From IMG/VR virus record IMGVR_UViG_3300024985_000004, positions 1 to 37,658 of that record: a stretch of 37,658 nt of DNA. One strand, written 5' to 3'. The notes beneath the pieces were generated by a model that did no database searches, was not told the DNA's origin, and saw nothing but the letters and a program-made list of their open reading frames with translations. This DNA is from a virus. The translations under genes and the position numbers were made by a program. Positions 29,259 through 33,364 of the stretch are shown here, piece after piece (the first letter of the stretch is position 1; each line of letters begins with the position of its first letter).

Positions 29259-29449
29259 TTGTAACCTCCACAGTAGTAGTCTCTAAAAGTTTGTTCACGG
29301 GCCTCAGTCTCTGAGATGCCCGCCATTGTTTTAATGCCGACACGCTCGGTAAAGCGGTGGGCATCATCATTGGTTAAGCGCTGTTGTATTTTGTCCAGCC
29401 GGGCTTTTAGCCAGTCGCTGTCAGTTATTTGTGTGGGCAGTGTTTGCAA
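29255..29449 (-). CDS. Small soluble protein of the lysis cassette
   Basis: This 64-residue helical protein starts with TTG and overlaps the upstream 50-residue gene by 25 bases and the downstream gene by four bases. The sequence contains SDWLKARLDKIQQRLTNDDAHRF and ends DYYCGGYK. The RBS is weak, so it may depend on coupled translation. No family was recognised. Confidence 0.5.
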   Translation of the reverse strand: MQTLPTQITDSDWLKARLDKIQQRLTNDDAHRFTERVGIKTMAGISETEAREQTFRDYYCGGYK

Positions 29450-29577
29450 CGCAGTAACCCGATTATTTTTTTTTCGATGGTCATCGCGCCAAAAATAGCC
29501 GCTTTAATTAACAGCACGCTACCGATGATTAGGCCAAGCGCCAAGCCGATTTTGATAAGTGCGTGTAATGGGGCCAT
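29425..29577 (-). CDS. 50-residue membrane protein heading the lysis operon
   Basis: This short protein begins MAPLHALIKIGLALGLIIGS and has one hydrophobic helix (about 8-32) and a Cys/His-rich basic tail (LLRCKHCPHK). It is preceded by AGGA and by the palindrome copy B about 60 bp upstream. As the first gene of the lysis unit it could be a holin or antiholin. Confidence 0.5.
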   Translation of the reverse strand: MAPLHALIKIGLALGLIIGSVLLIKAAIFGAMTIEKKIIGLLRCKHCPHK

Positions 29578-29636
29578 GTGGCAATCCTATTTTGTTAGCA
29601 AAAACAATACGCCAACCCCCGCTAATTGCCCTCGCT

Positions 29637-29648
29637 GGAAACGTTTCC
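29637..29648. promoter_or_regulatory. Late-operon palindrome, copy B (between lysis and head operons)
   Basis: GGAAACGTTTCC lies in the 127-bp gap between the divergent lysis (start 29577) and head (start 29705) units, about 60 bp from each start codon. It is identical to copy A at 17631-17642 and shares its flanks. A weak -10-like TAACCT lies at 29676-29681 for the rightward unit. Confidence 0.6.
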
Positions 29649-29704
29649 CGGCTGATCAAACCCCTCGCGCGCGCGTAACCTGCAAGCTCGTTTTGGGAGT
29701 TGTT

Positions 29705-30058
29705 ATGACACGCATTTATTTAGCCGGACCGATGTCGGGCCTGCCCGAGTTTAATTACCCGGCATTTAATGAGGCCGCAGCGCAGTTGCGAGCGCGTGGC
29801 TTTATTGTTGAAAACCCTGCGGAAAACCAACAACCGCCGTGCGGTAGCTGGGAAGGCTATATGCGGCTGTCATTAACACAGATGCTGGCCTGTGATTGCG
29901 TGGTGTTGCTGCCGGGTTACCGAGCATCAAAAGGTGCCAGCGTTGAAAACCTGGTCGCCAGCTATTTAAAGATCCCGCGCTACTCAATCGATGAGGCATT
30001 GCAGTTTGATTACAAGTTGCGGGACAGATGCGCTAAACAAGCAGAGGTAACAAAATGA
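29705..30058 (+). CDS. DUF4406 protein (deoxyribosyltransferase-like)
   Basis: This 117-residue protein has the DUF4406 pattern: MTRIYLAGPMSGLPEFNYPAF at the start, PAENQQPPCGSWEGYMRL in the middle and GYRASKGASVENLVA with the conserved Glu. The fold is that of nucleoside 2-deoxyribosyltransferases, but the substrate is unknown. GGGAG precedes the ATG. It is the first gene of the rightward head operon. Confidence 0.85.
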   Translation: MTRIYLAGPMSGLPEFNYPAFNEAAAQLRARGFIVENPAENQQPPCGSWEGYMRLSLTQMLACDCVVLLPGYRASKGASVENLVASYLKIPRYSIDEALQFDYKLRDRCAKQAEVTK

Positions 30059-30555: not shown

Positions 30556-30914
30556 GCGAGCAAGCACCGGTCGATAACGGCCAAATTATGCACAGCATCG
30601 GACAGCTGACCGGCGCAATACAGTCCATGCACCAAGGCTTAACAGCGCGTATTGAAGATATTAAAGACGACATTCGCCGCCTGGACAACGCAAGCAACGC
30701 GCGAATGGACCGCATTGAAGAAAACATGGTCCGGCAAATCCACGAGCAAGGCGACAGCACCAATAAACGCATTGATGGCTTGGGCGATCGGGTGTCATCG
30801 CTGGAAAAAGAAGACAAGATCATGATCCGTGAGATTGCCAAATACTCAGCCATGGGTGGCGGTGCCTCGGCAGCACTGGTGGCTGGCGTGGTTGAGCTGC
30901 TGAAGCGCATCTAA
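30552..30914 (+). CDS. Coiled-coil protein with C-terminal membrane segment
   Basis: This 120-residue protein has a long coiled coil (about 20-90, ARIEDIKDDIRRLDNASNARMDRIEEN) and a C-terminal hydrophobic segment (GGGASAALVAGVVELL). It overlaps both neighbours by a few bases. It corresponds in position to small Mu genes ahead of the terminase and may be a lysis or membrane-tether protein. Function is unassigned. Confidence 0.65.
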   Translation: MSEQAPVDNGQIMHSIGQLTGAIQSMHQGLTARIEDIKDDIRRLDNASNARMDRIEENMVRQIHEQGDSTNKRIDGLGDRVSSLEKEDKIMIREIAKYSAMGGGASAALVAGVVELLKRI

Positions 30915-31408
30915 TGGCACATTCTCACGAGGTCCGTGCGCAACTCCGTAGGCTCTATATTGAAGGCATGCCGCTGTCGGGTGCTGCTATCAGCTGCAGT
31001 GTTAACTACGACAGCGCCAGGCAGTGGAAAGCGGCGGCTAAAGCTAAAGGTGATTGCTGGGATGCGGGCCGCGCAGCGTATCGCATCAGCGAATCTGGCA
31101 TTGATGATCTAAACAAGCAGCTGGTGGAGGATTTTGCACGGCAGGTGATTACCACCACGCGCGAGCTGCAAGAGTCGACCATTCCGGCACAAGCCAAGGC
31201 ACAGTTGTTAGCGCAGTTGGCCGATGCTTATGCCAAGTTTAGCAAGGCTTTCAGCCGAGTTAATCCGCAGTTTAGCGGGCTGTCGGTGGCATTAGATACG
31301 TTAAAAACCATCGCTGATCATCTGGCTAAAAAAGACCCGGCAGCGTTGCGTGTGCTGCAGGAACACCTTGAAGACATTGGGGCTGTGCTGGGGAAAAGGT
31401 ATGGCTGA
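30914..31408 (+). CDS. Small terminase subunit (DUF1804, Mu gp27-like)
   Basis: This 164-residue protein matches DUF1804, the Mu-like small terminase. The helix-turn-helix at the N terminus (HEVRAQLRRLYIEGMPLSGAAI.. with NYDSARQWK) recognises the packaging start, and the C-terminal part oligomerises. In the virion assembly line it directs headful packaging from the left phage end. Confidence 0.88.
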   Translation: MAHSHEVRAQLRRLYIEGMPLSGAAISCSVNYDSARQWKAAAKAKGDCWDAGRAAYRISESGIDDLNKQLVEDFARQVITTTRELQESTIPAQAKAQLLAQLADAYAKFSKAFSRVNPQFSGLSVALDTLKTIADHLAKKDPAALRVLQEHLEDIGAVLGKRYG

Positions 31409-31418
31409 ATCAAATAAT

Positions 31419-31450
31419 GTAGGGTGGGTTAGCGATAGCGTAACCCACCA
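31419..31450. repeat. Host-type palindrome in the terminase operon
   Basis: Arms GTGGGTTA and TAACCCAC (31424-31448) with the leader GTAGG. It separates the small terminase gene from the Acb2-like gene. It could lower transcription into the large terminase unless an anti-terminator acts. Confidence 0.85.
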
Positions 31451-31477
31451 ATCCTTTGACAAAAACGCGAGGTGTGT

Positions 31478-31663
31478 ATGTCGCCAATTATGAAATATTT
31501 TAAATATGAACACCTGCCAGAGCATTTGCAGGAAATTAGCAAACCCTTTGGCGACTTAGCCAGGCAGATGGATGAAGCATTGCCAGACGGAGCAGAAAAA
31601 AGCGCAGGCCTGCGCAAGCTGTTAGAGGCTAAAGACTGTCTGGTGCGGGCTAAGTTGGGATAG
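31478..31663 (+). CDS. Small Acb2-like hairpin protein (possible anti-CBASS sponge)
   Basis: This 61-residue protein has two predicted helices: EHLQEISKPFGDLARQMDEA and EKSAGLRKLLEAKDCLVRAKL, joined by LPDGA. This helical hairpin and the LPD..EKS..LRKL.EAKD..VRA pattern resemble the Acb2/Tad1 hairpin family, hexameric proteins that sequester cyclic-nucleotide immune signals. Acb2 has been described in Mu-like Pseudomonas phages. The start at 31478 has GAGG upstream. Homology is judged from pattern only, and ligand residues could not be checked, so this is tentative. Confidence 0.6.
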   Translation: MSPIMKYFKYEHLPEHLQEISKPFGDLARQMDEALPDGAEKSAGLRKLLEAKDCLVRAKLG

Positions 31664-31672
31664 TCACAGCTC

Positions 31673-33364
31673 ATGTCCGAAACCATCGATATCCAAGACG
31701 TCCGCAACTGGCGCGAGTTTGAAAAAGAGCTGGCGTTACTCGGCGAACAGATCCGTAATCAAATCGAGCTGGAGTGCGAGGCATTTGCAACCGACCCCGC
31801 CGAAAGCGCCCTTCGACGTGATAAAGCCAAAGTTGATTATGGCTTCTTCTGCAAAACTTACTTTCCGCACTATGTACCGACGGCGCATTTCAGCCTGTTC
31901 CACCAATTCATTTTTGAGCGTTTCCCAGCAATCATAGACGGTGCTGCTGACGGCCGCGAAGTACACCAAGCACCGCGTGGTGAGGCTAAGTCGACCTACG
32001 AAACCCAGCTGGGCTCGTTGTGGTGCATCGTCACCGGTCGCAAGCACATGATCGGGATCATCATGAACACCGAAGAGCAGGCTGCGGAAATGCTGGAAAG
32101 CATCAAAGCGGAGCTGGACACCAACCCGCGCCTGGCGATGGACTTTCCGGACGCTTGCGGTCGTGGCCGGGTGTGGCAATCGACAACAGCTATTACTGCC
32201 AACAATATCAAGGTGCGCATCGGCGGTACCGGCAAGAAAATCCGGGGTATGAAGCACGGCCCGCACCGGCCTGACTTGATCTTTTTAGACGATCTTGAGA
32301 ACGATGAGAACGTTAAAGACAAAACCCAGCGCGACAAGGTGCAAAAGTATGTATTAAGCGCGGTGCTTGGCTTAGCCGGGCCGCAAGGCGGTATGGACGT
32401 GTTTTGGGTGGGCACCAGTTTGCATTATGACGCGGCGATCAATCGGGTGAGCCGTGCGCCGGGTTGGCGGCGTCGGGTGTTCCGCTCGATTCTGAAATGG
32501 CCAGATCGGATGGATCTTTGGGACCAGTGGGAAGCGCTGTACACCCGCAGCGGCGAAGATGACGAAAAAGAACAGTTCGAAGCCGAGGCGCTGGCGTTTT
32601 ACCAAAAGCACAAGAAGTCGATGGATGCCGGTGCGGTATGCAGCTGGCCAGAAGTGCGGCCACTGTACCGGTTGATGTGCATGCGCGCGGTCAATCACGA
32701 CAGTTTTAGTCAAGAGCAGCAAAACGAAGCAGGCAACGACGAAAACGCGCCGTTTAAGGATATTCAGTTTTGGGTTAACAGGCTATCTGATTGGGTTTTT
32801 TTCGGTGCGATTGATCCGTCCCTAGGCAAAAAAGGCACGGTCAAAGGCGACCCGTCAGCCATTTTAGTGGGCGGTTTGGATCGTAAAAAGATGGTGCTGG
32901 ATGTGTTGGAAGCTGATATCGCCCGCCGCGTGCCGGATTTGATCATCAGCCGCGCCATCGATCTGCAGGCGGAATACAACTGCGTAGCGTGGTCTGTGGA
33001 GGCTGTGCAATTTCAATATTTTATGTACACCGAGCTCATCAAGCTGGCTGCGCTGCGCGGCATTGCGTTTCCAGGGATTCCTGACACACCGCATACCGAC
33101 AAGTCGTTGCGGATATCCAGCATGCAGCCGCACATCGCCAACGGCCTGATCAGATTGCATCGCAATCAAAGCACATTAATCGAGCAATTAAAATTTTACC
33201 CTGAGGCCGACCACGATGACGGCCCGGATGCGCTGGAAATGCTATGGCGACTGGCTCAGCAATTTGGCGGCGAGTGGGAATATACATCGGCGGGTAATAG
33301 CCGCAACAAACGGCGTTCGACGAGTCGTCGAAGCACTTATGAAGAGGATTGGGATGATGATTGA
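31673..33364 (+). CDS. Large terminase subunit (Mu gp28)
   Basis: This 563-residue packaging motor has an N-terminal ATPase with a Walker A-like HQAPRGEAKST (98-108) and Walker B LIFLDDLE (202-209), and a C-terminal RNaseH-like nuclease with GAIDPSLG (D381) and DDGPDALEM near residue 517. The C terminus is basic, Arg/Ser-rich. It cuts and packages phage DNA with host DNA attached, as in Mu. Confidence 0.95.
   Translation: MSETIDIQDVRNWREFEKELALLGEQIRNQIELECEAFATDPAESALRRDKAKVDYGFFCKTYFPHYVPTAHFSLFHQFIFERFPAIIDGAADGREVHQAPRGEAKSTYETQLGSLWCIVTGRKHMIGIIMNTEEQAAEMLESIKAELDTNPRLAMDFPDACGRGRVWQSTTAITANNIKVRIGGTGKKIRGMKHGPHRPDLIFLDDLENDENVKDKTQRDKVQKYVLSAVLGLAGPQGGMDVFWVGTSLHYDAAINRVSRAPGWRRRVFRSILKWPDRMDLWDQWEALYTRSGEDDEKEQFEAEALAFYQKHKKSMDAGAVCSWPEVRPLYRLMCMRAVNHDSFSQEQQNEAGNDENAPFKDIQFWVNRLSDWVFFGAIDPSLGKKGTVKGDPSAILVGGLDRKKMVLDVLEADIARRVPDLIISRAIDLQAEYNCVAWSVEAVQFQYFMYTELIKLAALRGIAFPGIPDTPHTDKSLRISSMQPHIANGLIRLHRNQSTLIEQLKFYPEADHDDGPDALEMLWRLAQQFGGEWEYTSAGNSRNKRRSTSRRSTYEEDWDDD

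Follow-up and report, generated by a model that had tools for sequence, protein, structure and literature searches.

The 61-residue protein encoded between the terminase genes of a Mu-like virus belongs, by sequence comparison, to a large, unnamed phage family (phrog_1761/5120) that appears remotely but demonstrably homologous to the Acb2/Tad1 hairpin family when the two are compared at the family-to-family level. The protein would extend the Acb2/Tad1 hairpin superfamily by a new, distant branch and is probably a sponge. From its kinship, predicted fold, cargo behavior and genomic company, we infer a counter-defence role in which a nucleotide-type signal is sequestered; that it is at once Acb2/Tad1-hairpin kin, counter-defence cargo and a nucleotide-signal sponge is, in our judgment, rather likely. 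The window analyzed here is the whole stretch of 37,658 nucleotides (positions 1 to 37,658 of IMG/VR virus record IMGVR_UViG_3300024985_000004). Portal and head genes follow the large terminase (TerL) gene, with a transposase gene (phrog_310) some way to the left, a layout that fits the label Mu-like. The relevant features are collected in Table 1.

Table 1. Features at and around the hairpin gene in the window.
Feature	Position	Strand	Basis
Probable small terminase (TerS), slot border	30914..31408	+	phrog_756 DNA binding protein, E 2.1e-48; named by position before TerL
Palindrome, 9-bp arms GGTGGGTTA/TAACCCACC	31423..31449	.	Sequence; RNA hairpin z -2.6; near-identical element by Methylomonas gene
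GAGG, likely ribosome-binding site	31469..31472	+	Sequence reading, 5 nt upstream of ATG 31478
phrog_1761/5120-family 61-aa hairpin protein, remote Acb2/Tad1-hairpin relative (stop 31663)	31478..31663	+	Translation, PHROG, homology, predicted fold, selection
Large terminase (TerL), other slot border	31673..33364	+	phrog_38, E 3.9e-111

The product of the hairpin gene reads MSPIMKYFKYEHLPEHLQEISKPFGDLARQMDEALPDGAEKSAGLRKLLEAKDCLVRAKLG; the 61-residue frame and the motif LPDG.EKS..LRKL.EAKD..VRA, both claimed in the earlier note, are present in the translation at those coordinates. The frame is a real gene, since at least 80% of the protein is kept in one place in 358 phage records, and it is under strong purifying selection. 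Its closest genomic relative, 95% identical, is encoded by Methylomonas sp. SURF-2 in the same gene order as in the window, with extra short sequence on both sides. Comparison with the nearest relative gives a dS of 0.51 and a dN of 0.022 (a dN/dS of about 0.04 against the Methylomonas gene), and among more distant relatives synonymous sites are saturated, yet 76-90% of the residues are kept. Relatives occur in 366 phage records (Vibrio, Mycobacterium, Erwinia, Acinetobacter, Brevibacterium, Gordonia and others) and in 522 viral-contig stretches. PHROG matches of the protein are phrog_1761 (1.4e-35) and phrog_1454 (5.9e-5), and eight polar residues are nearly or fully invariant across the family: His12, Glu40, Arg46, Lys47, Glu50, Lys52, Asp53 and Arg57.

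The gene lies in a variable cargo slot. In relatives of the window's TerL, TerS and TerL range from overlapping to 1.6 kb apart, and the gapped ones hold many unrelated small open reading frames (ORFs), in agreement with the accessory slot that had been proposed from the sequence. Apart from the window's twin contig, none of 65 readable TerS-TerL gaps contains a phrog_1761/5120 gene. An ORF of ~100 aa, its function not assigned, recurs in the gap of the close relatives L506, L507, L510, L515 and L539. Elsewhere in the window, just 5′ of an Rz-like spanin gene, positions 29429-30058 encode a DUF4406 / nucleoside 2-deoxyribosyltransferase-like protein (84 bits), possibly another nucleotide-handling cargo gene.

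The palindrome upstream of the hairpin gene travels with it. Its core pattern would be expected 0.02 times by chance, and the exact core has one copy in the window and one in the Methylomonas sp. SURF-2 genome, there adjoining the relative of the 61-residue gene. A search with the 69-bp leader of the gene found no phage match. The palindrome had been described as host-type; it is indeed there, but with one exact-core copy in the Methylomonas genome, beside the hairpin gene, neither that description nor the idea of a multi-copy host repeat finds support.

Across the family as a whole, the gene likewise behaves as cargo, with neighbors that vary between phages: holin, major capsid, baseplate, thymidylate synthase, Rz, topoisomerase/rIIA or portal genes, depending on the phage. 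The hairpin itself is sometimes part of a larger or repeated protein. It is joined to a crAss001_48-related domain in L412:2986-3450 and is apparently doubled in tandem within one protein in L441:2992-3375 (by eye), while the ORF downstream of L433:2950-3183 seemingly joins a Tad2-like N-terminal part to a domain similar to the crAss001_48-related one. A family member of 122 aa from Ochrobactrum phage vB_OspP_OH (BFVD A0A6G6XYP8) carries the name Anti-TRAP domain protein, which suggests a hairpin plus an additional domain.

The fold of the protein was predicted with AlphaFold2 from an alignment containing 78 relatives (monomer; pLDDT 97.4, pTM 0.82). The model has a short helix (residues 3-8) followed by two long antiparallel helices (15-34 and 39-58), so that the two-helix hairpin of the earlier note is recovered with a short helix in addition. 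The helix layout of Acb2 protomers has been described (PMC12043709), and the confident model has this layout as predicted. In a search of BFVD, the top six matches look like members of the protein's own family (44-56% identity), and 17 of the entries at ranks 7 to 38 are named Acb2/Tad1 hairpin protein, including the nearest non-self match at rank 7 (E 0.018, prob 1.00, TM 0.69, 36% identity). P1 gp22 and isoleucine tRNA ligase are weak matches in the PDB; the gp22/sheath match falls inside a sheath protein of ~530 residues and was taken as chance. Foldseek and VIA searches of the PDB with the same model did not list Acb2. This outcome counts neither for nor against kinship, since a control model of a Pfam-recognised hairpin protein did not detect its own fold significantly with Foldseek (Tad1 E 0.69, T4 Vs.4 E 0.85); with VIA, the control placed T4 Vs.4 first at a Z of 7.6, barely exceeding unrelated helical proteins.

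Kinship was assessed by comparing three sets of proteins: the phrog_1761/5120 family (set A), Acb2 of the PaMx33/JBD67/T4 type (set B), and Acb2/Tad1 hairpin proteins (set C, the source of the control model above). Set C was gathered with a hand-written, consensus-like probe and validated afterwards: all 36 sampled members match the Pfam Acb2/Tad1 hairpin domain (PF24729), and among solved structures the set matches 'Acb2 homolog 43' (PDB 9ptq) at 1.9e-11 and Tad1 at 5e-5. Single sequences of set A stay below the Pfam gathering cut-off of 27 bits for PF24729. The 61-residue protein scores 12.6 bits, against 66-71 bits for true Acb2 proteins, and no sampled family member passes (best E 0.011 among 40 members and 0.066 among 78; highest score seen, 16.5 bits). 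PF24729 found nothing in 16 whole records carrying a family gene; in 12 further records it gave sub-threshold matches at the family gene in two, besides the true Acb2 of T4 and JBD67.

Compared as families, sets A and C align without gaps over residues 18/19-51 with an hhalign probability of 94-96% (E 4e-9 to 9e-8, score 40-44). As controls, 300 column-shuffled profiles gave a mean score of 9.6 (sd 2.0, maximum 18.5) and the reversed profile 9.4. Reciprocal HMM searches, with whole loci as background, were specific: the set C model recovered 215 of 237 set A genes at E<=10 among 20,667 ORFs (100 at E<=1e-3; best 1.1e-5, best other ORF 1.1), and the set A model matched 80 of 81 set C genes among 5,440 ORFs (best 1.9e-5, best other ORF 3.5). 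PHROG matches cross over in both directions, from the 61-residue protein to phrog_1454 and from 26 of 36 set C members to phrog_1761. A direct profile-profile comparison of A with B gave no signal, but B and C, though accepted relatives, reach only 10-33% between themselves, so A and B may still be linked through C. A weak Pfam match to the Occludin homology domain (0.037), the name used in some Acinetobacter phage records, is below its own cut-off and was set aside as a chance helical match. The profile check that the earlier note had proposed for an 'Acb2/Tad1-type' protein thus comes out positive between families, by hhalign and reciprocal HMM searches, and below the cut-off for the direct PF24729 score. 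That note had named a missing profile match together with a predicted fold or oligomer lacking the Acb2 pockets as grounds for giving up its reading; what was found is a family-level match, a predicted Acb2 layout and hairpins in BFVD, with the direct Pfam match far below the cut-off.

One of the closest known systems is the PF24729/phrog_1454 hairpin (including Acb2 homolog 43, 9ptq). It shares the helical hairpin, an FxY(x)H start, an LP.G.E-type loop and a helix 2 core of E..(A/S)L.KL.EA, and it too is encoded by a small, stand-alone phage cargo gene with Tad2 neighbors. The 61-residue protein differs in its sub-threshold score and in its first long helix, shorter by roughly one turn, and its family has an invariant Arg46 in place of the Thr of TKLEEA and lacks the Trp/Asn of the FWAN motif. 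With PaMx33/JBD67 Acb2 and T4 Vs.4 (anti-CBASS 2), it shares a short helix followed by two antiparallel helices and a similar neighborhood, seen with true Acb2 in a related Mu-like phage; aligned by eye, it also has the KL.EA.....RA of helix 2 of T4 Vs.4 in the same register, whereas it lacks the GYRDLS N terminus and the ligand-stacking C-terminal aromatic. Tad1 (Thoeris anti-defence 1) has a similar helix 2 core (RE..ALTH.EEA..W), but its two helices are preceded by an N-terminal antiparallel beta-sheet (PMC12043709), a domain absent from the model, which consists of helices only. Acb4 and Tad2 would share the proposed sequestration strategy, and Tad2 is also a recurrent neighbor; they are separate families (PF13876 and PF11195), neither of which is among the Pfam matches of the protein.

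The missing aromatic residue bears on the name. In T4 Acb2, Phe82 stacks on bound cyclic dinucleotides, and its change to Cys abolishes Panoptes activation (PMC12657218). We took the T4 residues for the ligand comparison from this one paper. In an ungapped register set by eye from KL.EA.....RA, Phe82 corresponds to Leu60 of the 61-residue protein, a position that is mostly Leu family-wide, and by this alignment the ligand-stacking aromatic is missing. Since the conserved polar residues are not those of Acb2, the protein should not be named Acb2, and it may bind a different signal. Of the 'Acb2-like sponge' in the earlier note, we therefore keep an Acb2/Tad1-hairpin relative that is probably a sponge, and give up the name, given the sub-threshold score and the absence of a Phe82-type residue.

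The genomic company of the family supports an anti-defence function. Tad2-like genes are found in seven of 236 phrog_1761/5120 loci (six independent phages, ~3%), always at most 62 bp from the family gene and on the same strand; there are none elsewhere in the 1.85 Mb of family loci scanned, nor in any of 68 TerL control loci. All six independent genes are confirmed by PF11195, five at 71-93 bits and the sixth at 59.5 bits. Such closeness would arise with a probability of roughly 1e-9 under random placement of six genes, a value that is illustrative only, since the distance limit was chosen afterwards. Loci of true Acb2 and of set C likewise have Tad2-like neighbors (3 and 5 of 80). On one prophage-type contig (L062:4146-5183), lysis genes, a true Acb2 (PF24729, 58 bits), a Tad2-like gene (PF11195), a phrog_1761/5120 gene and pRha follow one another in this order, and in a Mu-like relative with a 52% identical TerL, TerS is immediately preceded by a true Acb2 (L557:2242-2475; PF24729, 69.7 bits).

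In the mechanism we propose, a stand-alone helical hairpin of shared Acb2/Tad1 ancestry would be carried as counter-defence cargo in the TerS-TerL slot. Reasoning from its relatives, we would expect the protein to form an oligomer, with inter-subunit pockets that bind a nucleotide-type signal: either a CBASS cyclic oligonucleotide or an ADP-ribose-type signal of Thoeris. The signal would be held rather than degraded, so that the host suicide effector stays off and the phage evades immunity. The invariant or near-invariant polar residues listed above would be natural candidates for the pocket. As they and the base-stacking position differ, the mode of ligand recognition is probably not quite that of T4 Acb2.

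An alternative is that the protein serves counter-defence or host takeover by binding a protein (an effector, sensor or regulator) and no nucleotide signal at all. A cargo slot and anti-defence neighbors would suit any mode of counter-defence, and the aromatic residue with which T4 Acb2 stacks on its ligand has not been retained. We nonetheless consider this unlikely: the characterised members of the homologous family, Acb2 and Tad1, are nucleotide sponges, and purifying selection this strong, at saturated synonymous divergence, is more in keeping with a small ligand that does not vary than with a protein partner that changes fast.

The family could also be an accessory of capsid or head assembly, its hairpin packing on the head, with a distant historical link to Acb2 only. 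Family genes are often near head genes: in Acinetobacter phages they are flanked by genes for a head morphogenesis protein and the major capsid protein, and in Vibrio and Gordonia phages they lie 3′ of the major capsid protein gene. In L340:2974-4845, moreover, the hairpin forms the N terminus of an in-frame fusion with a prohead S78 protease and a major capsid protein (Pfam-confirmed); similar ORFs were seen in L341, L347, L351 and L353, the Pfam check having been made on L340 alone. These fusions keep the head-protein reading alive at low odds, and would equally suit a sponge produced at levels similar to the capsid. A position just 3′ of the head genes is also that of the true Acb2 of JBD67, family genes are found as well beside holin, topoisomerase and rIIA, thymidylate synthase, Tad2 and Acb2 genes, and absence from 65 other TerL relatives with a readable gap is unlike an essential head part, so that we give a head protein little credence.

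Convergence of short amphipathic hairpins, with no Acb2/Tad1 kinship, is very improbable: short helical proteins do match by chance, Occludin_ELL scores equal to the hairpin in Pfam, and P1 gp22 and isoleucine tRNA ligase were weak PDB matches, but shuffled and reversed profiles score far below the true comparison, the HMM searches are specific in both directions over whole loci, PHROG matches cross both ways, an unguided structural search of BFVD yields Acb2/Tad1 hairpins, and adjacency to Tad2 is independent of sequence likeness.

Within the sponge reading, a bolder version can be put forward tentatively: phrog_1761/5120 might form a separate, very widespread class of sponges with a pocket chemistry of its own, in which His12, Arg46, Lys47, Glu50, Lys52, Asp53 and Arg57 replace the pocket residues of Acb2, directed at a signal poorly covered by Acb2, Tad1 and Tad2, and in some phages forming part of a capsid polyprotein. 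A sponge inside a capsid polyprotein would couple the amount of sponge to the amount of capsid. We regard this version as a possibility worth stating, somewhat short of an even chance.

If the proposed kinship and function are right, current Pfam thresholds miss hundreds of counter-defence genes of the Acb2/Tad1 superfamily, at present annotated as 'hypothetical', in phages of Vibrio, Acinetobacter, Erwinia, Mycobacterium, Gordonia, Roseobacter-group bacteria and others. The TerS-TerL slot, with its many unrelated small ORFs, would be a candidate hunting ground for further genes of this kind. And because the conserved polar residues are unlike those of Acb2, the family could lead to an immune signal not yet tapped or to a new mode of binding.
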